From contig JAIOZY010000010.1 of assembly GCA_021740385.1 (NCBI GenBank), positions 1 through 64,000 on the forward strand: 64,000 nt of DNA. The letters are read 5' to 3'. Of this stretch, positions 28,452-37,701 are shown piece after piece. The translations under genes and the position numbers were made by a program. The notes below the pieces were generated by a model. That model was not told where the DNA came from, did no database searches, and worked only from the letters and a program-made list of their open reading frames with translations. Source of the stretch: Prolixibacteraceae bacterium. GTDB taxonomy: Bacteria > Bacteroidota > Bacteroidia > Bacteroidales > Prolixibacteraceae. Each line of letters starts with the position of its first letter. Position 1 is the first letter of the stretch.

Positions 28452-29474
28452 ATGCAAGCTGCAAAACCTACAATACAGCAAATTTCTAATACTACAGGCT
28501 ATTCCGTTTCTACGGTATCGCGTGTTTTGAACGGTTACAGCAGACAATACCGGATTAGCGAAAAAGCACAAAAATTAATAAAAAAGAAGGCCGAAGAACT
28601 GAATTATAAACCCAATCAAATGGCCCGCGGACTCCGGTTAAAACGCACGTTTACCATTGGTTTGGTAATTCCCGATTTTGCCAATCCCTTTTTTGCCATA
28701 ATGGCCAAACACATTGAAAAAGCGGCTTCTCTTTCAGACTATTCAATATTGCTGGTTGATTCCGATGAAAATGCCGAAAAGGAAAAACAACAGATAAAAA
28801 ACATGATTGCCCGCGACATTGATGGCATTATTGTAGCGCCTGTTGGGACAGAAAAAAACCATTTCAACGATATCATCAAGCAGAAAATCCCACTACTTTT
28901 TATCGACCGCTATTTTCCCGATATGGATGTACCATTTTTATCATCAGACAATTTCAGGGGAGCTTACGATGCTATAAAGCTTTTTATCAGGAATGGGCAT
29001 AAAAAAATTGCCATAATTAAAGGCGACAACCGCATTGAACCGGTTAAAGAAAGGCTCAGGGGTTACATCAACGCCCTAAAGGAATCGGGCATTAACGTTT
29101 GTGAAAAATTCATTGCCGGCAATGGGTTCAGTCCCGAAAATGGATACCACACTACACTCGAACTTCTGGAATTGCCCGAAAAACCTACAGCAATACTGGC
29201 CATGAGCAACCTGATAGGACTGGGTGTTTTGCAGGCATTAAATGAAAAAAATATGTCAATTCCTTCGGACATGTCATTTATTGTTTTCGATGACCAACCC
29301 TACGTTTCATATTTAAACCCTCCGGTAACCACTGTAAAACAAAATTCTGAGATGATCGGGAAAATGGCGTTTGAGCTATTGTTAAAAAAAATAAGTGATC
29401 CCGGGCATACCCCGTCTTCTCAACTCATCCCCACCGCAATAATCGAAAGGAGATCAATCAGCCAACAAAAATAA
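28452..29474 (+). CDS. LacI family transcriptional regulator
   Basis: The N-terminal HTH (TIQQISNTTGYSVSTVSRVLNG, residues about 7-28) and hinge are textbook LacI. The periplasmic-binding-protein-like sensor domain follows (FTIGLVIPDFANPFFA; sugar-pocket region ending in VTTVKQ). Length 340 is normal. It is immediately upstream of, and co-directional with, the nucleoside/ribose cluster. Between them lies a 30-base perfect palindrome centred on CG, the hallmark of a LacI operator. Inference: it represses the cluster and is relieved by ribose, a nucleoside or an ADP-ribose product. Confidence 0.95.
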   Translation: MQAAKPTIQQISNTTGYSVSTVSRVLNGYSRQYRISEKAQKLIKKKAEELNYKPNQMARGLRLKRTFTIGLVIPDFANPFFAIMAKHIEKAASLSDYSILLVDSDENAEKEKQQIKNMIARDIDGIIVAPVGTEKNHFNDIIKQKIPLLFIDRYFPDMDVPFLSSDNFRGAYDAIKLFIRNGHKKIAIIKGDNRIEPVKERLRGYINALKESGINVCEKFIAGNGFSPENGYHTTLELLELPEKPTAILAMSNLIGLGVLQALNEKNMSIPSDMSFIVFDDQPYVSYLNPPVTTVKQNSEMIGKMAFELLLKKISDPGHTPSSQLIPTAIIERRSISQQK

Positions 29475-29528
29475 AGGCTGAAAACTCAATTATTTTCTCA
29501 AAAATATTTCCTGTAAATAAAAAAACTC

Positions 29529-29558
29529 TACATTTGCACAAACGTTTGTGCAAATGTA
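29529..29558. promoter_or_regulatory. Perfect 30-bp palindromic operator overlapping a -7 box
   Basis: The left arm TACATTTGCACAAAC is followed directly by its exact reverse complement, with the dyad between 29543 and 29544. The first eight bases TACATTTG (29529-29536) match the TAnnTTTG -7 consensus, and by symmetry so do the last eight on the minus strand. It lies 54 bases after lacI and 39 before the ADP-ribosylglycohydrolase ATG. Binding here would directly mask the promoter. Confidence 0.85.
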
Positions 29559-29597
29559 AAAGCAAAACTGAAAACTTTTAAATCTAACTCGACCGAT

Positions 29598-31169
29598 ATG
29601 CGTAAAATAAGTTTATTTACAATATTCATTCTTATGCTAATGATTGGGATATCATGCAATCATTCAAAATCTGGAGAATCATCTTTCTTCGACAAACCAT
29701 TAAAAATTACTAGAGCTGAACTAGCCGATAAAATTAAAGGTGGCTGGGCCGGCCAGGTAATTGGCTGCACGTATGGTGGCCCAACAGAATTTCACTATCT
29801 GGGAGAAATAATCCCGGACTCTTTTCCAATTGTTTGGGATTCTGCACGTATTGAATGGTATTACGACCATGAACCCGGCCTTTACGATGATGTGTACATG
29901 GATCTCACTTTTGTGGAAGTATTCGAAAAAGAAGGGCTGGATGCTCCGGCCTCTTCTCATGCTAAAGCCTTTGCTAATGCCGATTATATGCTGTGGCATG
30001 CGAATCAGGCTGCACGTTACAACATACTGAACGGCATTGAACCACCTGCATCGGGGTATTGGGAAAACAATCCGCACTCCGACGATATCGATTTTCAAAT
30101 TGAAGCCGATTTTGCCGGACTCATGTCACCGGGAATGGGCAATACTGCCTCTGAGTTTTGCGATCGTTTAGGTCATATTATGAATTATGGCGATGGTTGG
30201 TATGGAGGGGTTTATGTGGCAAATATGTACGCACTCGCCTTCGTATCTCACGATGTTAATTTCATAGCAACCCAAGCCTTAAAATCGATTCCGGAAGAAA
30301 GTGAATTCTACAATTGCATGAAAGATGTGATGAATTGGCAAAAGCAATATCCCGATGATTGGACAAAAACCTGGTTAAAAGTACAAGAAAAATGGTCGAA
30401 CGACGTAGGTTGCCCCGATGGTGTTTTTCAACCTTTCGATATTGATGCAAAAATAAACTCTGCTTATATTTTGATTGGATTACTCTACGGAGAGGGAGAC
30501 TATTCGAAAACACTTGAAATCAGTGCCCGATGTGGACAAGATTCCGACTGCAATCCAGCCAGTGCAGGAGGCATACTGGGAACAATGTTAGGTTATTCAA
30601 ATATTCCACCATATTGGAAACAAGGATTAGATAAAGTTGAAGACCGTGATTTTAAATATACCACCATTTCATTAAATGATGTATATGAAATGGGGTTAAC
30701 TCATGCCTTACAAGTTATTAAAAGCGAAGGCGGTAAAGCAAACGAGCAAATAATAACAATCGACGTTCAGCATCCACAACCAGTAAAATTGGAACAAGGT
30801 TTTGAAGGCCACTACCCCGTTGCCAGGCTATCACTCTCTGAAAAAGACCAAAACCTCACACTCAATCATACACAAATAAGTTTCGAATTTGAAGGGATTG
30901 GCTTTGCGCTCAATGGATATTCAAACAAAGAAAAACATCTGGATGACACCGTTCAATTGGTAAAAGTATATATCGATAATGTAGAAACAGAAACAGTAAA
31001 ACTACCCACCAATTTCACCATTCGTCGACACGATATTTGCTGGAAATACAAACTGAATAAAGGAAAACATACAATTAAACTGCAGTTGCTCAATCCTGAA
31101 AAAGGGTATTCGGTATGGTTGAATAAACCAATCATCTATAGCGATCAACCAGTTAATAAAGAACTATAA
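29598..31169 (+). CDS. ADP-ribosylglycohydrolase family lipoprotein
   Basis: A predicted periplasmic or surface lipoprotein of the ADP-ribosylglycohydrolase (DraG/ARH) family, which cleaves N- or O-glycosidic bonds to ribose. The lipobox cysteine is Cys20 (MIGISC). Family motifs are KIKGGWAGQVIGCTYGGP (about 46-62), YDDVYMDLTF (about 97-106) and the metal-binding GQDSDCNPASAGG (about 313-325). A beta-rich C-terminal domain (about 385-523) is added, possibly for substrate binding. It is the first gene of an eight-gene cluster and sits right behind the palindromic operator. Export of such an enzyme suggests it acts on external ADP-ribose-like or riboside substrates. Confidence 0.88.
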   Translation: MRKISLFTIFILMLMIGISCNHSKSGESSFFDKPLKITRAELADKIKGGWAGQVIGCTYGGPTEFHYLGEIIPDSFPIVWDSARIEWYYDHEPGLYDDVYMDLTFVEVFEKEGLDAPASSHAKAFANADYMLWHANQAARYNILNGIEPPASGYWENNPHSDDIDFQIEADFAGLMSPGMGNTASEFCDRLGHIMNYGDGWYGGVYVANMYALAFVSHDVNFIATQALKSIPEESEFYNCMKDVMNWQKQYPDDWTKTWLKVQEKWSNDVGCPDGVFQPFDIDAKINSAYILIGLLYGEGDYSKTLEISARCGQDSDCNPASAGGILGTMLGYSNIPPYWKQGLDKVEDRDFKYTTISLNDVYEMGLTHALQVIKSEGGKANEQIITIDVQHPQPVKLEQGFEGHYPVARLSLSEKDQNLTLNHTQISFEFEGIGFALNGYSNKEKHLDDTVQLVKVYIDNVETETVKLPTNFTIRRHDICWKYKLNKGKHTIKLQLLNPEKGYSVWLNKPIIYSDQPVNKEL

Positions 31170-31180
31170 ATCCTATTACC

Positions 31181-32179
31181 ATGTTTATCATTCAATCGTA
31201 TCCGCTTGCTGTAATCTTTTGCGTAATCACTATGCTGTGTTGGGGATCGTGGGCCAACACTCAGAAATTAGCCTCTAAAAGTTGGGGCTTCCCCTTGTTC
31301 TACTGGGATTATACTTTGGGTATTATCCTGCTTTCTTTACTTGTTGGTGTTACCATGGGCAACATGGGAAGCGAAGGACAAGGCTTTTTTACCAGTTTGA
31401 AAGAAGCTTCCCTGAATGCAATTCTACTCGCTTTGCTGGGAGGTGCCGTATTCAATATTGCCAACCTCTTGCTTGTTGCAGCTATTGACATTGCCGGAAT
31501 GGCTATTGCCTTCCCCGTGGGTATAGGCATTGCACTCGCCCTTGGAGTTACCGTTAATTATATTGCTACTCCATTAGGAAACCCGGCCCTGCTTTTTATT
31601 GGTGTGGCACTGGTAGTTGGTGCCATTGTGCTGGATGCCCTCGCCTATAAAAAAATTTCAAAAGGAAGTGCCAGTACAAAAGGCATTGTGATTTCGCTGG
31701 CAGCCGGTATTTTGATGGGCTTCTTTTATCGTTTTGTGGCTGCTTCCATGTCGGAAGATTTTGCAAAACCTGTTGCCGGATTAATGACACCGTATGCAGC
31801 AGTCTTCATCTTTTCAATTGGGATATTCCTGTCGAATTTTCTTTTTAACTCCTTTTTTATGTATAAACCGGTAAGTGGAAAAAAGGTCACGTATTCCGAT
31901 TATTTCAAAAAAGGAAATCCGAAATTACACCTGATTGGTATTTTTGGAGGTGTAATCTGGTCAATCGGATTTGTTTTTAATATGATTGCTGCCGGAAAAG
32001 CAGGATTTGCCATATCATACGGACTGGGACAGGGAGCTACGTTAATTGCAGCTATATGGGGCGTGTTCATCTGGAAAGAATTTAAATATGCCCCAAAAGG
32101 CACCAACAGGCTTCTGGCATTAATGTTTATTAGTTTTATTGCCGGCCTGGTACTGATCATTACTGCACGTTTCATCTAA
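31181..32179 (+). CDS. GRP/ureide-permease-type sugar or nucleoside-product transporter
   Basis: About ten transmembrane segments in 332 residues. It fits the glucose/ribose-porter and ureide-permease branch of the drug/metabolite transporter superfamily (MLCWGSWANTQKLASKSW near the N-terminus, FYWDYTLG, then a conserved second half with FGGVIWSIGFVFN). The gene begins 11 bases after the ADP-ribosylglycohydrolase and ends 12 bases before ribokinase, so it likely imports the pentose that ribokinase phosphorylates. Substrate assignment is inferred from context. Confidence 0.82.
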   Translation: MFIIQSYPLAVIFCVITMLCWGSWANTQKLASKSWGFPLFYWDYTLGIILLSLLVGVTMGNMGSEGQGFFTSLKEASLNAILLALLGGAVFNIANLLLVAAIDIAGMAIAFPVGIGIALALGVTVNYIATPLGNPALLFIGVALVVGAIVLDALAYKKISKGSASTKGIVISLAAGILMGFFYRFVAASMSEDFAKPVAGLMTPYAAVFIFSIGIFLSNFLFNSFFMYKPVSGKKVTYSDYFKKGNPKLHLIGIFGGVIWSIGFVFNMIAAGKAGFAISYGLGQGATLIAAIWGVFIWKEFKYAPKGTNRLLALMFISFIAGLVLIITARFI

Positions 32180-32191
32180 AAAAGATAAAAC

Positions 32192-33106
32192 ATGGGAAAA
32201 GTTCTGGTAATAGGAAGCAGCAATACCGATCTGGTGTCCCGGACCGAAAAAATGCCTAAACCCGGTGAAACCATTATTGGAAAGGAATTCCGGGTTGTTC
32301 AGGGTGGAAAAGGCGCCAACCAGGCCGTAGCGGCTGCAAGGGCCGGCAGCAATGTTGTTTTTGTTGCAAAGCTGGGAAATGACGCTTTTGCTGAAAACGC
32401 GCTTCAGGAATACCAAAAAGACCAACTAAACACGCAGTACATTTTAAACGACAAAAACGAACCTACAGGAACCGCCATCATTATTGTTGACAATCATTCA
32501 GGCCAAAATTCAATTGTTGTCAACCCGGGTGCCAATCACCAGCTAAAGGTTTCGGACATTGAAGGTATTGAAAACGAACTTTTCACACCGGGTGTGTTGC
32601 TTGTGCAGCTCGAAATACCACCTGATGTTGTACATTATGCACTGAAAACAGCATCGGAACATGGAATGAAAACCTTGCTCAACCCGGCGCCTGCCCGGCA
32701 TCTGAGCGATGAATTATTATCATACGTCGATATCATTACACCTAACGAAACCGAAGCTGAAATGCTTACCGGAATTAAGTGTGTTAATGATGAAAACATT
32801 GAAAGGGCAGCAAAAGCACTGATAGAAAAAGTTAACGATGCTGTGATCATAACCCTGGGCGAAAAGGGTGTGTTTTTCATGTTGAAAAACGGGAAAACGG
32901 GAAGTATCCCTGCCCTTAAAGTAAAAGCTGTTGATACCACAGCGGCCGGCGATGTTTTTAACGGGTACCTTGCTGCCGCATTAAGTAAACACACTGCAAT
33001 TGAAAAAGCCATTTACCAGTCGATCAGGGCAGCATCAATTTCAGTAAAAAAAGAGGGGGCACAACCTTCAATTCCTTATCTTTATGAAATCGAAAGCCAG
33101 AAATAA
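32192..33106 (+). CDS. rbsK: Ribokinase
   Basis: PfkB-family kinase converting ribose to ribose 5-phosphate in the cytoplasm. Visible signatures are GGKGANQAVAAARAG (residues 38-52), NPGANHQL, and the catalytic DTTAAGDVFNGY with Asp254 as the base. Length 304 is normal. The order permease-ribokinase and the nucleoside hydrolase and deoC downstream support ribose or deoxyribose as the sugar. Another PfkB specificity cannot be excluded. Confidence 0.9.
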   Translation: MGKVLVIGSSNTDLVSRTEKMPKPGETIIGKEFRVVQGGKGANQAVAAARAGSNVVFVAKLGNDAFAENALQEYQKDQLNTQYILNDKNEPTGTAIIIVDNHSGQNSIVVNPGANHQLKVSDIEGIENELFTPGVLLVQLEIPPDVVHYALKTASEHGMKTLLNPAPARHLSDELLSYVDIITPNETEAEMLTGIKCVNDENIERAAKALIEKVNDAVIITLGEKGVFFMLKNGKTGSIPALKVKAVDTTAAGDVFNGYLAAALSKHTAIEKAIYQSIRAASISVKKEGAQPSIPYLYEIESQK

Positions 33107-33114
33107 CCGTTGTC

Positions 33115-34494
33115 ATGTTTAAACACCTCTTCGTATTTATTATCGCATTAAACATTGCCTGCACATTGGCAGCCAAAACCCTGCCCCTTTTGCAGGTAAG
33201 TGAAAACAAACAGTACATTGAAACCGAAAACGGGGAACCTTTTTTATGGATTGGCGACACGGCCTGGGAACTCATTCACCGGCTTAACCGCCAGGAGACT
33301 GAACTGTATTTGAACGACCGGGCCGATAAAGGTTTCAACATTATTCAAACCGTAGTACTGGCCGAGTTGAACGGACTTAAAACACCCAATGCAAATGGCG
33401 ATGTGCCGTTGGTTGACCTTGACCCGACGCGGCTAAACGAAAAGTACTTCGAACACGTTGACTGGGTATTGAAAAAAGCCGAAAAACGGGGACTGTATAT
33501 TGCGCTGCTCCCAACATGGGGCGACAAGTTTAATCGGAAATGGGGTGCGGGTCCTGAAATTTTCAACCCTGTAAACGCTGAAAGATATGGTGAGCTTCTG
33601 GCCAAACGCTACCTCAATCAAAACAACATTGTGTGGGTACTTGGCGGCGACCGCATGCCCGAATCGGAAATACAATTCGAAGTAATCCGGGCTATGGCGA
33701 GGGGCATTCGAAACGTTGATCAAAAACACCTGATCACCTACCATCCTGTAGGGGGGAAAAGGGCAACCGATGTTTTTAACAACGAATGGCTCGACCTCGA
33801 CATGTTTCAAAGCGGACATTCACGAGACGCTGCTGAATACCGGTATGTATGGGAAAGCAAAAAAAACACCCCTGCCCGACCGGTAATAAACGGCGAAGCC
33901 CGCTATGAAAACATCCCCGACCATTTTTGGGAACCGGAAGAACACCCCTGGCTCGACGACAGCGATGTGCGCGTATCGGCCTACTGGAGTTTTTTTGCCG
34001 GGGCTGCCGGTTACACTTACGGCTGCAACGACATTTGGCAAATGTATAGCCTGCACCACAACCCCACGATCAATGCCCGAACCGGCTGGAAAGATGCGAT
34101 GCAATTGCCGGGTTCATCGCAAATGAAACACCTTAAAACACTTTTTACGGCTTTCCCCTGGCATGAAATGGAAAACGACCAGTCGATCATTCTGAACGAA
34201 AACCCGCGAAACGATGAATTCAGCATGAGTGCCATTAGTAAAAACCGTGATTTTTTGCTGGCACATACGCCATGGGGGCGCTCCATAAAAGTTGATCTGT
34301 CGAAAGTGGATGCCCAAAAAATAAAAGCTTTTTGGTTCAATCCCCGTTCAGGTGGCTCGTTATTTATTGGCACATTCAATGCTTCGGAAAAACCGGAATT
34401 CACCCCCTGGGCTTCGGGCCGGGGCAGCGATTTTGTACTCGTTGTTATTGATGCTTCCAACAGTTATCCCTTACCATTCGTAAATAACCAATAA
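33115..34494 (+). CDS. DUF4038 / GH140-like glycoside hydrolase
   Basis: A secreted protein with a signal peptide (residues 1-20) and a TIM-barrel-type domain recognisable as DUF4038: FLWIGDTAWELIHRLNRQETELYL, then LLPTWGDKF, VWVLGGDRMPE and VINGEARYEN. A C-terminal beta domain follows (PRSGGSLFIGTFNA). The characterised relative family GH140 contains apiosidases. In this cluster its neighbours act on ribosides and nucleosides, so the real substrate may be a branched- or pentofuranosyl compound; that is inference. It starts 8 bases after ribokinase. Confidence 0.82.
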   Translation: MFKHLFVFIIALNIACTLAAKTLPLLQVSENKQYIETENGEPFLWIGDTAWELIHRLNRQETELYLNDRADKGFNIIQTVVLAELNGLKTPNANGDVPLVDLDPTRLNEKYFEHVDWVLKKAEKRGLYIALLPTWGDKFNRKWGAGPEIFNPVNAERYGELLAKRYLNQNNIVWVLGGDRMPESEIQFEVIRAMARGIRNVDQKHLITYHPVGGKRATDVFNNEWLDLDMFQSGHSRDAAEYRYVWESKKNTPARPVINGEARYENIPDHFWEPEEHPWLDDSDVRVSAYWSFFAGAAGYTYGCNDIWQMYSLHHNPTINARTGWKDAMQLPGSSQMKHLKTLFTAFPWHEMENDQSIILNENPRNDEFSMSAISKNRDFLLAHTPWGRSIKVDLSKVDAQKIKAFWFNPRSGGSLFIGTFNASEKPEFTPWASGRGSDFVLVVIDASNSYPLPFVNNQ

Positions 34495-34505
34495 AATATA
34501 TAACC

Positions 34506-35516
34506 ATGAACCGTATACTGCATTACTTTTTTATTGCGGGCTTGTTTCTGATTTTTGCCTGCACCAGCGAAGAAACCAAACCGGTAAAAATTATTTTCGA
34601 CACCGACTTTGGCGGCGATGCCGATGACCTTGGCGCCCTGGTGATGCTGCACAACTTTGTTGAAAACAACGAATGCGAACTGCTTGCCGTAATGCTCTGG
34701 ACAAGCGAACAATATGCCGTTCAGGCCGTCGATGCCATTAACCGTTATTACAATCACCCCGATATTCCGATTGGGGTACGGAAAGCCGGGAAATACCACG
34801 AACCCTGGAACTATTGCAAACCCATTGCCGATGCGTTTCCAAACGAACTCACCTACGAAAAAGCGGAAGATGCCACAATTTTATACCGAAAAATTCTGGC
34901 TGAAGCCGATGATAACAGCGTAGTAATTGTACCCGTTGGCCCACTCGCTAACCTGCAAAACCTGATCGTATCACCTCCCGATGCCATTTCACCATTAACA
35001 GGCAAAGAACTTCTGCACCAAAAAGTGAAAGAGCTGGTTATCATGGGCGGACAATTCCCCTCGGGTGAAAACGAATGGAATTTTAACGGCAACATGCCGG
35101 GCGTGACAAAGTTTGTGCTCAATAACATTGACCTGCCCGTTACCTTCTCGGGATATGAAATTGGGGCGGCCATTAAAACCGGCGAGGAGTTTAACCAAAC
35201 CGATCCGAATACCCCGCTTTATGTAGGTTTTAAACATTTTAGCCAACACGCCCCGTGGATCAATGAAAATTACAAGGGTAAAATCCTCGACAATTCAACG
35301 TTCGACCAAACGGCTGTTTTACATGCCGTTCGAAACGGCGAAGGCCAATTCTGGGAAAAAGTTACAGGCGGTGAGTGTATTGCCGATGAAAATGGCGGCA
35401 ACACCTGGGCCGAAAATCCTGAATCGAAGCATGCCTACCTGAAACTGATAGCCGACCCGGAAAATATGGCTGCGCTGATTGAAAAACTGATGCTTTGGGA
35501 ACCCGAAAACAGGTAA
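34506..35516 (+). CDS. Inosine-uridine-preferring nucleoside hydrolase family lipoprotein
   Basis: Hydrolyses ribonucleosides to base and ribose. The lipobox cysteine is Cys19 (LIFAC), so the enzyme is exported and membrane-anchored. The Ca-binding N-terminal motif DTDFGGDADD occupies residues 32-41, and later family segments VPVGPLANL and MGGQFPSGENEWNFNGN are clear. An exported nucleoside hydrolase placed between GH140-like and GH30 genes suggests extracytoplasmic nucleoside breakdown followed by pentose uptake through the permease at 31181. Confidence 0.9.
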   Translation: MNRILHYFFIAGLFLIFACTSEETKPVKIIFDTDFGGDADDLGALVMLHNFVENNECELLAVMLWTSEQYAVQAVDAINRYYNHPDIPIGVRKAGKYHEPWNYCKPIADAFPNELTYEKAEDATILYRKILAEADDNSVVIVPVGPLANLQNLIVSPPDAISPLTGKELLHQKVKELVIMGGQFPSGENEWNFNGNMPGVTKFVLNNIDLPVTFSGYEIGAAIKTGEEFNQTDPNTPLYVGFKHFSQHAPWINENYKGKILDNSTFDQTAVLHAVRNGEGQFWEKVTGGECIADENGGNTWAENPESKHAYLKLIADPENMAALIEKLMLWEPENR

Positions 35517-35560
35517 TTTTTTCACTATACTTTCGTTTTATTAATTTAACTACCCGATCA

Positions 35561-36970
35561 ATGAGAATAACAAACATATCAGCAATTCTGATTGTAGCTT
35601 TTCTGGCAACAAGTTGCCTGAAACAGAATGCCGTTATCAGTTGGACAACAAGCAGTCCTGATGCGACATGGCAACAATCAACCATTCTTTCAACAAAAAA
35701 CACCTCCGATTCATTAATCGTTATTTATCCTGAAAAAACCGAACAGGTAATTGATGGATTTGGCGGCTGCTTTAATGAACTGGGATGGGAAGCACTTCAA
35801 GTGCTCACCCCTGCCAGACAGGAAATGATTATTGCGGCCCTTTTCGATACTGTTTCAGGCTGTAAATTTAACCTTTGCCGCATGCCAATCGGTGCCAACG
35901 ATTATTCACTCGATTGGTATAGCCACAACGAAACCCCCAGTGACTTTTACATGCAAAACTTTTCAATTGACAGGGACCGCGAACGGCTGATCCCTTATAT
36001 CAACTTTGCCAAGAAATACAATCCTGTTATCAAAATATGGGCATCGCCATGGTGCCCGCCATCATGGATGAAAACAAACAACCATTACGCGTGTAGTCCC
36101 GACGTTGTAAACGATCTTCCCAAAAGCGGGCAAGGGCGTGAAATGACCGACCAGTTCCGCATAGAAAATTCCTACCTGGAAGCCTATGCTTTCTATTTTT
36201 CAAAATTCATTTCAGCATATAAAAATGAAGGCATCGATATTTACGCGGTTCATGTACAAAATGAACCCAACTCTTGCCAGAACTTCCCTTCGTGTATTTG
36301 GACACCCGGTTCGCTTGCAACATTCATTGGCAGTTACCTGGGCCCGCGCATGAAATCCGATCATCCTCAAACGGAAATATGGCTGGGAACCATTGAACGG
36401 CCGCAAATTGAACGCATCGATACCATCCTGCAGCACCCCGAAGCAAAAAAGTACATTAAAGGGGTCGGCTTCCAGTGGGCAGGTAAAAAGGCCATTCCGC
36501 TTGTACAAAAAAAGTATCCCGGCTATGAGCTGATGCAAACCGAGACTGAATGTGGTAACGGGTCGAACAACTGGGATGCGGCCGAATATACTTTTAGCCT
36601 GATGGAACATTATTTCAACCATGGGGCTAATGCCTACCTTTACTGGAACATGGTGCTCGACCAAACCGGGAAAAGCCGCTGGGGATGGAAACAAAACTCG
36701 ATGATTACAATTGACAGCGAAACAAAACAAGTAACTTTCAACCCCGAATTTTACCTGATGAAACATTTCAGCCATTACATCCATTCCGGCAGTCATAAAA
36801 TTAAAACGTCAGACCCAGGTTGCCTCGCTTTCAAAACCAACAATGCGCTTGTAATGGTTTACTTTAACCACAAATCAGAAACAATAAAACATTTCTCGAT
36901 AGGAGGCAGAAGCTTTAAAGCAGCCCTGCCCGCTCAGTCGATAAACACGTTTGTTTATCCCTTACAGTAA
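35561..36970 (+). CDS. GH30 family glycoside hydrolase lipoprotein
   Basis: A retaining glycoside hydrolase of the glucosylceramidase-like GH30 family. The ATG at 35561 starts the lipoprotein signal (lipobox Cys near residue 19, FLATSC). The barrel shows DGFGGCFNELGWEAL, SPWCPPSWMK, the acid/base Glu235 in VQNEPNSCQN, and the nucleophile in the QTETECGNG motif (Glu328 or Glu330). The small C-terminal beta domain is typical. The specific GH30 subfamily and substrate are unclear. A 44-base gap separates it from the nucleoside hydrolase and 17 bases from deoC. Confidence 0.88.
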   Translation: MRITNISAILIVAFLATSCLKQNAVISWTTSSPDATWQQSTILSTKNTSDSLIVIYPEKTEQVIDGFGGCFNELGWEALQVLTPARQEMIIAALFDTVSGCKFNLCRMPIGANDYSLDWYSHNETPSDFYMQNFSIDRDRERLIPYINFAKKYNPVIKIWASPWCPPSWMKTNNHYACSPDVVNDLPKSGQGREMTDQFRIENSYLEAYAFYFSKFISAYKNEGIDIYAVHVQNEPNSCQNFPSCIWTPGSLATFIGSYLGPRMKSDHPQTEIWLGTIERPQIERIDTILQHPEAKKYIKGVGFQWAGKKAIPLVQKKYPGYELMQTETECGNGSNNWDAAEYTFSLMEHYFNHGANAYLYWNMVLDQTGKSRWGWKQNSMITIDSETKQVTFNPEFYLMKHFSHYIHSGSHKIKTSDPGCLAFKTNNALVMVYFNHKSETIKHFSIGGRSFKAALPAQSINTFVYPLQ

Positions 36971-36987
36971 AATTTTAAATAAATACC

Positions 36988-37701
36988 ATGAATAAAGTTG
37001 ACGAACTGGCAAAAATGATCGATCACTCGATCCTCCACCCTGCTTTTACCGATGAAGACCTGAAAAGGGAATGCGAAGTGGCTGTAAAATACAACGTGGC
37101 TTCGGTGTGTGTAAAACCTTATGCCGTGAAACAGGCGGCCGAATACATCAAAGGGTCAGACGTGGTTAACTGCTGCGTGATTGGCTTCCCGCATGGCAAC
37201 AGCTCAACAAAGGTAAAATTGTTCGAAACCGAACAGGCCTGTATTGATGGCGCTACCGAGATTGACATGGTGGTAAACATTGGCAAAGTTTTAGGCAATG
37301 ACTGGAATTTTGTGGAAACTGAAATAGAAGCCATAAACAACGTTTGCAAAAAACACGGCGCTTTGCTGAAAGTGATTTTCGAAAATGATTACTACCGGGG
37401 CCGCGACGACCTGAAAATAAAACTTTGTGAAATATGCACCCGCGTTGGCGTGGCCTGGGCAAAAACATCAACCGGGTACGGTTTCGTAAAAGGCCCCGAC
37501 GGTAAATACAGTTACGATGGCGCCACCGAACACGACCTGAAACTGATGCACGAACATTCAGGCCCCAACGTGCAGATAAAAGCAGCCGGTGGTGTACGCA
37601 CCCTCAACGACCTGCTTCGTGTTAAAGAACTGGGCTGCACCCGCTGTGGGGCAACGGCAACAATCGCCATGCTCGAGGAAGCAAAAAAGCGGTTTAACTA
37701 A
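36988..37701 (+). CDS. deoC: Deoxyribose-phosphate aldolase
   Basis: Cleaves 2-deoxyribose 5-phosphate to acetaldehyde and glyceraldehyde 3-phosphate in the cytoplasm. The Schiff-base lysine is Lys159 in AWAKTSTGYGF. EIDMVVNIG and the phosphate-binding IKAAGGVRT are present. Length 237 is slightly longer than common bacterial DeoC. It completes a path from deoxynucleosides to central metabolism within the cluster, although no phosphorylase (deoA or deoD) or mutase (deoB) is present, so deoxyribose 5-phosphate must be made another way, perhaps by the PfkB kinase. Confidence 0.95.
   Translation: MNKVDELAKMIDHSILHPAFTDEDLKRECEVAVKYNVASVCVKPYAVKQAAEYIKGSDVVNCCVIGFPHGNSSTKVKLFETEQACIDGATEIDMVVNIGKVLGNDWNFVETEIEAINNVCKKHGALLKVIFENDYYRGRDDLKIKLCEICTRVGVAWAKTSTGYGFVKGPDGKYSYDGATEHDLKLMHEHSGPNVQIKAAGGVRTLNDLLRVKELGCTRCGATATIAMLEEAKKRFN

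Follow-up and report, generated by a model that had tools for sequence, protein, structure and literature searches.

Loci for ribose and nucleoside scavenging in Bacteroides combine a LacI regulator with a permease, a ribokinase-like kinase, a nucleoside hydrolase and an ADP-ribosylglycohydrolase. Operators of the LacI family, as described in the excerpted text of a survey, are even palindromes with a central CG and a usual length of 16 to 22 nt, and the range from 140 to 30 bp upstream holds more than 75% of the sites (PMC4052901). Promoters of the primary sigma factor of Bacteroidota, again according to an excerpt, carry TAnnTTTG at -7 and TTTG at -33 (PMC7366714). Here we analyze a 64,000-nucleotide stretch of DNA from a Prolixibacteraceae bacterium (referred to as the window), in which a perfect palindrome lies between a lacI gene and a cluster of ADP-ribose, ribose and nucleoside genes (Table 1). 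Its core very probably is an ordinary LacI-type operator, whereas its long arms are unusual.

Table 1. Coordinates of the palindrome, its parts and the neighboring genes in the window
Feature	Position	Strand	Remarks
Perfect zero-loop palindrome, arms of 15	29529..29558		Centre 29543/29544
Left outer arm, complementary to 29552-29558	29529..29535		Arm covariation in sites behind lacI
Right outer arm	29552..29558		Arm covariation in sites behind lacI
Putative operator core GCACAAACGTTTGTGC (consensus used, GYRCAAACGTTTGYRC)	29536..29551		Recurs beside LacI relatives; predicted binding site
TACATTTG, likely -7 box of the cluster promoter	29529..29536	+	Ends 8 bases left of the dyad centre; same register in many relatives
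Mirror TACATTTG	29551..29558	-	2 of 13 sites with a sense-strand box
LacI-family regulator gene	28452..29474	+	PF00356; PF13377/PF00532
ADP-ribosylglycohydrolase family protein, first cluster gene	29598..31169	+	PF03747
Remaining cluster, likely regulated	31181..37701	+	Ureide/sugar-type permease, PfkB kinase, apiosidase-like protein, nucleoside hydrolase, GH30, DeoC

Results

A preliminary description of this DNA had reported a perfect 30-bp palindrome between lacI and the first gene of the cluster, longer than usual for LacI sites. This holds in all three respects. TACATTTGCACAAAC followed by GTTTGTGCAAATGTA matches positions 29529-29558 exactly, with no loop and with arms of 15, and the symmetry stops at the next flanking pair (C/A); lacI ends at 29474 and the cluster gene starts at 29598, both on the plus strand, so that lacI runs towards the cluster; and even motifs in the excerpted LacI survey measure 16 to 22 nt (PMC4052901). 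At the base composition of the window, arms of at least 15 are expected by chance 7.7e-5 times per window and 0.006 times per genome of this size. Among the other zero-loop palindromes of the window, the longest has an arm of exactly 8 and is the sole one to reach that length. A search of the whole 4,889,453-base assembly with up to 3 mismatches gave no second match to the palindrome. We rejected a candidate second operator in the genome, the sole other match to the inner 22 bp at up to 3 mismatches (G000, contig 14), which falls within a 606-codon open frame. The regulator gene, which also encodes a sugar-binding domain, scored 37.4 bits for PF00356, compared to a cut-off of 27, and the best PDB matches of its protein include CcpA, a ribose operon repressor and PurR. 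Judging from their spacing and strand, the cluster genes are presumably cotranscribed. The apiosidase-like protein and the GH30 enzyme (33115-36970) are odd partners for a pure ribose/nucleoside pathway.

The site is an even palindrome with a central CG, as LacI-family operators are in the survey excerpt (PMC4052901), and its centre lies about 54 bp before the start codon, within the range of 140 to 30 bp given there. The part that recurs elsewhere, 16 to 18 bp, fits the usual length of even motifs, and only the 30-bp symmetry exceeds it. With up to one mismatch, TGYRCAAACGTTTGYRCA occurred in 28 of 140 genomes of the family, some of these matches falling within unrelated genes, and a reversed control pattern occurred in 6 of 140. 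Exact matches were present in 4 of 393 genomes of the order and 4 of 395 of the phylum, the window's own counted in each, with 0 control matches. Besides the window's, six genomes carried the exact core: three had a LacI relative within the examined stretch, and three had none there, one of these with the core inside an open frame.

To compare sites, we used 40 loci picked for their LacI relatives, 2 of which had been brought in by the operator pattern itself. We kept those sites that had a central CG and no more than 2 mismatches, 49 in all, at 34 loci; 6 loci had no kept site and 1 gave no lacI frame. Left out before counting were five sites with 3 mismatches, sites not centred on CG, sites within lacI and sites at a distance of over 600 bases. 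Thirteen of the kept sites lie behind lacI, meaning that an open frame of more than 110 codons (in most cases unannotated) follows on the lacI strand within 328 bases. Twelve are proximal upstream sites, no more than 30 bases from the called start of lacI, and 24 are distal, elsewhere upstream; one site counted as upstream sits 14 bases inside the called lacI frame. The core was found beside LacI relatives 37 to 66% identical to the window LacI. In a relative of the same genus, TATGTTTGCACAAACGTTTGTGC occupies the same gap, and the next gene there is a permease. In G465, which belongs to another family of the same order and has a LacI 57% identical, a 40-bp perfect dyad precedes an ADP-ribosylglycohydrolase gene (PF03747, 132.7 bits). 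Because the CG-centred core recurs beside related lacI genes in other Bacteroidota, the palindrome very probably serves the neighboring LacI-family regulator as its operator, as had been proposed. Conservation upstream of related clusters, in turn, was found in part: the core, the sense-strand -7 box and the self-complementarity are kept in the same-genus relative and in G465, but the exact 30-bp sequence is not. Four of the loci (L052, L057, L058 and L067) carry, near position 1501, a different, CC-centred element consisting of tandem GCAAACCTTTG-type repeats before genes; in three of the four the downstream gene codes for a 324-residue protein with a GAGGFIGGHL-like start.

The outer eight bases of the palindrome read as a Bacteroidota -7 box, TAnnTTTG, on the plus strand (29529-29536) and, as had been noted before, on the minus strand (29551-29558). 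In the window as a whole this word is no commoner than chance (65 found, 72 expected). We scanned 90 offsets from the dyad centre for exact TAnnTTTG on the sense strand. Behind lacI, the box ended at -8 in 4 of 13 sites and was found at no other offset. Proximal upstream sites had it in this register in 7 of 12 cases, with four matches at other offsets, and distal sites in 2 of 24, with one match elsewhere. The register was thus occupied at 11 of 25 sites near lacI versus 2 of 24 distal ones (Fisher p 0.008), counts which include the window itself as one of the 11, are inflated by common descent and reflect a register partly forced by the operator's own TG. Since many of the sites share ancestry, such counts speak more for retention than for repeated independent acquisition, and 14 of the 25 sites near lacI have no exact box in register. 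The box differs at its two free positions between the window (TACATTTG), the genus relative (TATGTTTG), G465 (TAGATTTG) and G182 (TATTTTTG), all in the same register. These data support the proposal that repressor site and promoter share bases. TTTG occurred 17 to 23 bases upstream of the register box at 4 of the 13 sites with a sense-strand box, at 20 bases in G465 and G182; no TTTG was found at this distance, i.e., near -33, from the window box. On the opposite strand of the distal sites, exact TAnnTTTG stood at a fixed +32 in 10 of 24, and in 8 of these 10 the inner TTTG of the operator lies 20 bases upstream of the box, where a -33 element would be. At eight loci (L061, L063, L064, L069, L072, L073, L075 and L078, around position 1501), the inner TTTG of an operator in a divergent gap takes the -33 place of the divergent promoter.

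Beyond the core, the three classes of sites differed. Symmetry of outer pairs 10 to 19 reached 6.7 of 10 behind lacI (p 5e-5 when right arms were exchanged among sites), compared to 3.1 at proximal (p 0.90) and 4.2 at distal upstream sites (p 0.055). The window site has 7 of the 10. At least 9 outer pairs were observed in 4 of 13 sites behind lacI (G465, G394, G302 and G108) and in 0 of 36 others. Perfect arms measure 20 in G465 and 19 in G394 and G302, which belong to one genus; the arm of 18 in G108 has one mismatch. These long dyads fall into three LacI clades, each supported in a tree with a weak backbone: the window, its same-genus relative and G465; G394 and G302; and G108 and G016.

The arms behind lacI also covary. 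Over the 11 pairs outside the core, all 13 sites (set A3, 12 of them distinct) scored 0.463, compared to 0.194 for shuffled sites (0 of 500 as high) and at most 0.197 for slid ones; thirteen sites are few, and relatedness survives the shuffle control. All 11 pairs had changed on both sides. Seven of the 13 (set A1, which omits one identical copy, one weak second site and four sites of another operator type) scored 0.576. Control sets from upstream of lacI gave 0.161 for the 12 proximal sites (A5; slid, up to 0.271), 0.261 for the 24 distal sites (A6; shuffled, 0.217, with 43 of 500 as high; slid, up to 0.262) and 0.205 for 9 of 24 upstream sites (A2; slid, up to 0.220). What is retained in the long dyads behind lacI is thus their self-complementarity, while their sequence changes. 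These arms therefore probably either function as a hairpin or derive from one.

In the first of these senses, the dyad behind lacI would be transcribed from lacI, and its stem would end, trim or stabilize the lacI mRNA and keep read-through from entering the operon. We consider this conceivable, though not favored. The symmetry, the four nearly complete dyads and the covariation just described all point this way, as does the same-genus site, whose ten outer pairs comprise 6 standard and 4 G.U pairs in the lacI sense. However, over the 13 sites, G.U pairs number 8 in the lacI sense and 7 in the antisense; there is no strand preference overall, so an RNA role of the arms is not demonstrated by them. 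The reverse complements of set A1 covary too (0.429), 5 of 13 sites behind lacI have five outer pairs or fewer, and exceptions occur upstream, with 8 outer pairs in G148 and 7 each in G675 and G085. A role as intrinsic terminator of lacI was rejected, as the stem lacks a following U-run on the strand of lacI and the terminator-like call is on the minus strand. There, at 29526-29561, the palindrome is followed by TTTTTTT, as in an intrinsic terminator of transcripts from the minus strand; in the same-genus relative the T-run is missing at this place. G465 carries a further inverted repeat directly behind lacI, which also counts against a functional hairpin. This long repeat, CCTAGATTA...TAATCTAGG, follows a second operator-like site, a weak one (L086, about 2520-2600 on the reverse strand), and the 40-bp dyad lies about 200 bases further on. 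Fairly long dyads in the window's own genome are not confined to sites behind lacI, either. Among its seven further LacI genes, of which four were compared (L110, L111 and L113 were excluded), L108 has a dyad centred on CG, AAATTGTACAATC/GATTGCACAATTT, which pairs at 13 of 14 inner positions, lies 29 bases upstream of a lacI-type gene and has no TAnnTTTG in the window's register. We therefore claim no genome-wide rule and tie long dyads to sites behind lacI with caution.

In the second sense, template switching at the operator palindrome (quasipalindrome correction) would have lengthened and perfected the arms without selection. In E. coli, according to the excerpted account, this process turns imperfect inverted repeats perfect or more perfect (PMC7202029). 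It would account for new sequence with retained symmetry, alike on both strands. Taken alone, however, it leaves the concentration behind lacI unexplained, unless it is linked to transcription, and we regard it, too, as a conceivable rather than a favored origin of the arms.

That the outer symmetry arose by chance around a normal operator of 16 to 20 bp is improbable. The same-genus site, with only 8 perfect inner pairs, and several other ordinary sites behind lacI would fit this idea, but the long dyads appear in three supported LacI clades (arms of 15 and 20; 19; and 18 with one mismatch), and the covariation exceeds both shuffled and slid controls.

A second, antisense promoter into lacI, with the symmetry selected for a -7 box on both strands, is highly improbable: although both boxes are in register in the window and G465, and the upstream site G675 has an in-register box on the other strand only, the mirror box occurs at just 2 of 13 sites with a sense-strand box and not in the same genus, no TTTG lies 17 to 23 bases upstream of it in either the window or G465, complementarity runs past its TA in G465 and G394, and the two free positions of the box (columns 8 and 9) covary across sides, for which a mirror box has no need. 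We rejected it as a conserved function; the mirror promoter element seen in the preliminary description is probably a by-product of symmetry.

Discussion

We read the palindrome as the operator of the LacI regulator encoded upstream, placed over the -7 region of the promoter that would drive the ADP-ribose/ribose/nucleoside cluster, with a probability of about 0.8. A repressor dimer bound at the core would mask both the -7 box and the start site, so that RNA polymerase would be excluded until the dimer is released by a ligand, probably a sugar. Transcription is predicted to start near 29539-29540, about 7 bases past the midpoint of the -7 box. Binding and repression by the regulator, its ligand, the start site and any role of a hairpin are predictions from DNA sequence. 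The reading as a LacI-type operator that has bases in common with a -7 box is sound, and such an element would be of an ordinary kind; the covarying arms are the part that deserves a second look. In the literature searched, with subscription papers mostly outside its coverage, we found no report of the operator/-7 register or of covarying operator arms, and we claim no novelty.

With a start at 29539-29540, the operon's own transcript would begin inside the left arm, making the full hairpin impossible in it. The hairpin that the outer arms, which reach beyond the core, probably form or derive from would lie either in lacI read-through transcripts or in replicating DNA. Among transcripts, only one started upstream, such as lacI read-through, could form the full hairpin, which makes a read-through hairpin attractive. 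An extension, which we think rather unlikely, is a double-purpose class of Bacteroidota LacI operators, in which repressor would bind the core on top of the -7 box while the covarying arms form an insulating hairpin in lacI read-through RNA. If true, one element would govern both initiation and read-through in a co-directional lacI-operon arrangement.

The reading as an operator over the -7 box provides a ribose/ADP-ribose cluster with an operator and a promoter that can be tested. In addition, one LacI operator consensus appears in two recurring layouts on Bacteroidota promoters, with its outer TTTG within the -7 box or its inner TTTG at a divergent -33. The arms raise the question of why self-complementarity extends past the core that the repressor would read, and why it does so mainly behind lacI.

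Comparison with known systems places the locus as follows. The gene set of the cluster is like that of the ribose/nucleoside scavenging loci of Bacteroides, going by the general description of these loci. The centre of the palindrome, AAACGTTT, presumably resembles operators of the PurR/RbsR type; the PDB matches of the regulator to CcpA, a ribose operon repressor and PurR indicate likeness, not orthology. Compared to the Bacteroidota primary-sigma promoter of the excerpted report, the window has no TTTG at -33 and its -7 box overlaps the operator, but TACATTTG stands at a sensible distance from the gene and many relatives have the box in register (PMC7366714). LacI/GalR-family operators, as far as the survey excerpt describes them, are matched in the even palindrome, the central CG, the lacI neighbor and the distance to the start codon; unlike their even motifs of 16 to 22 nt, self-complementarity covers 30 bp in the window and reaches as much as 40 bp in a relative (PMC4052901).
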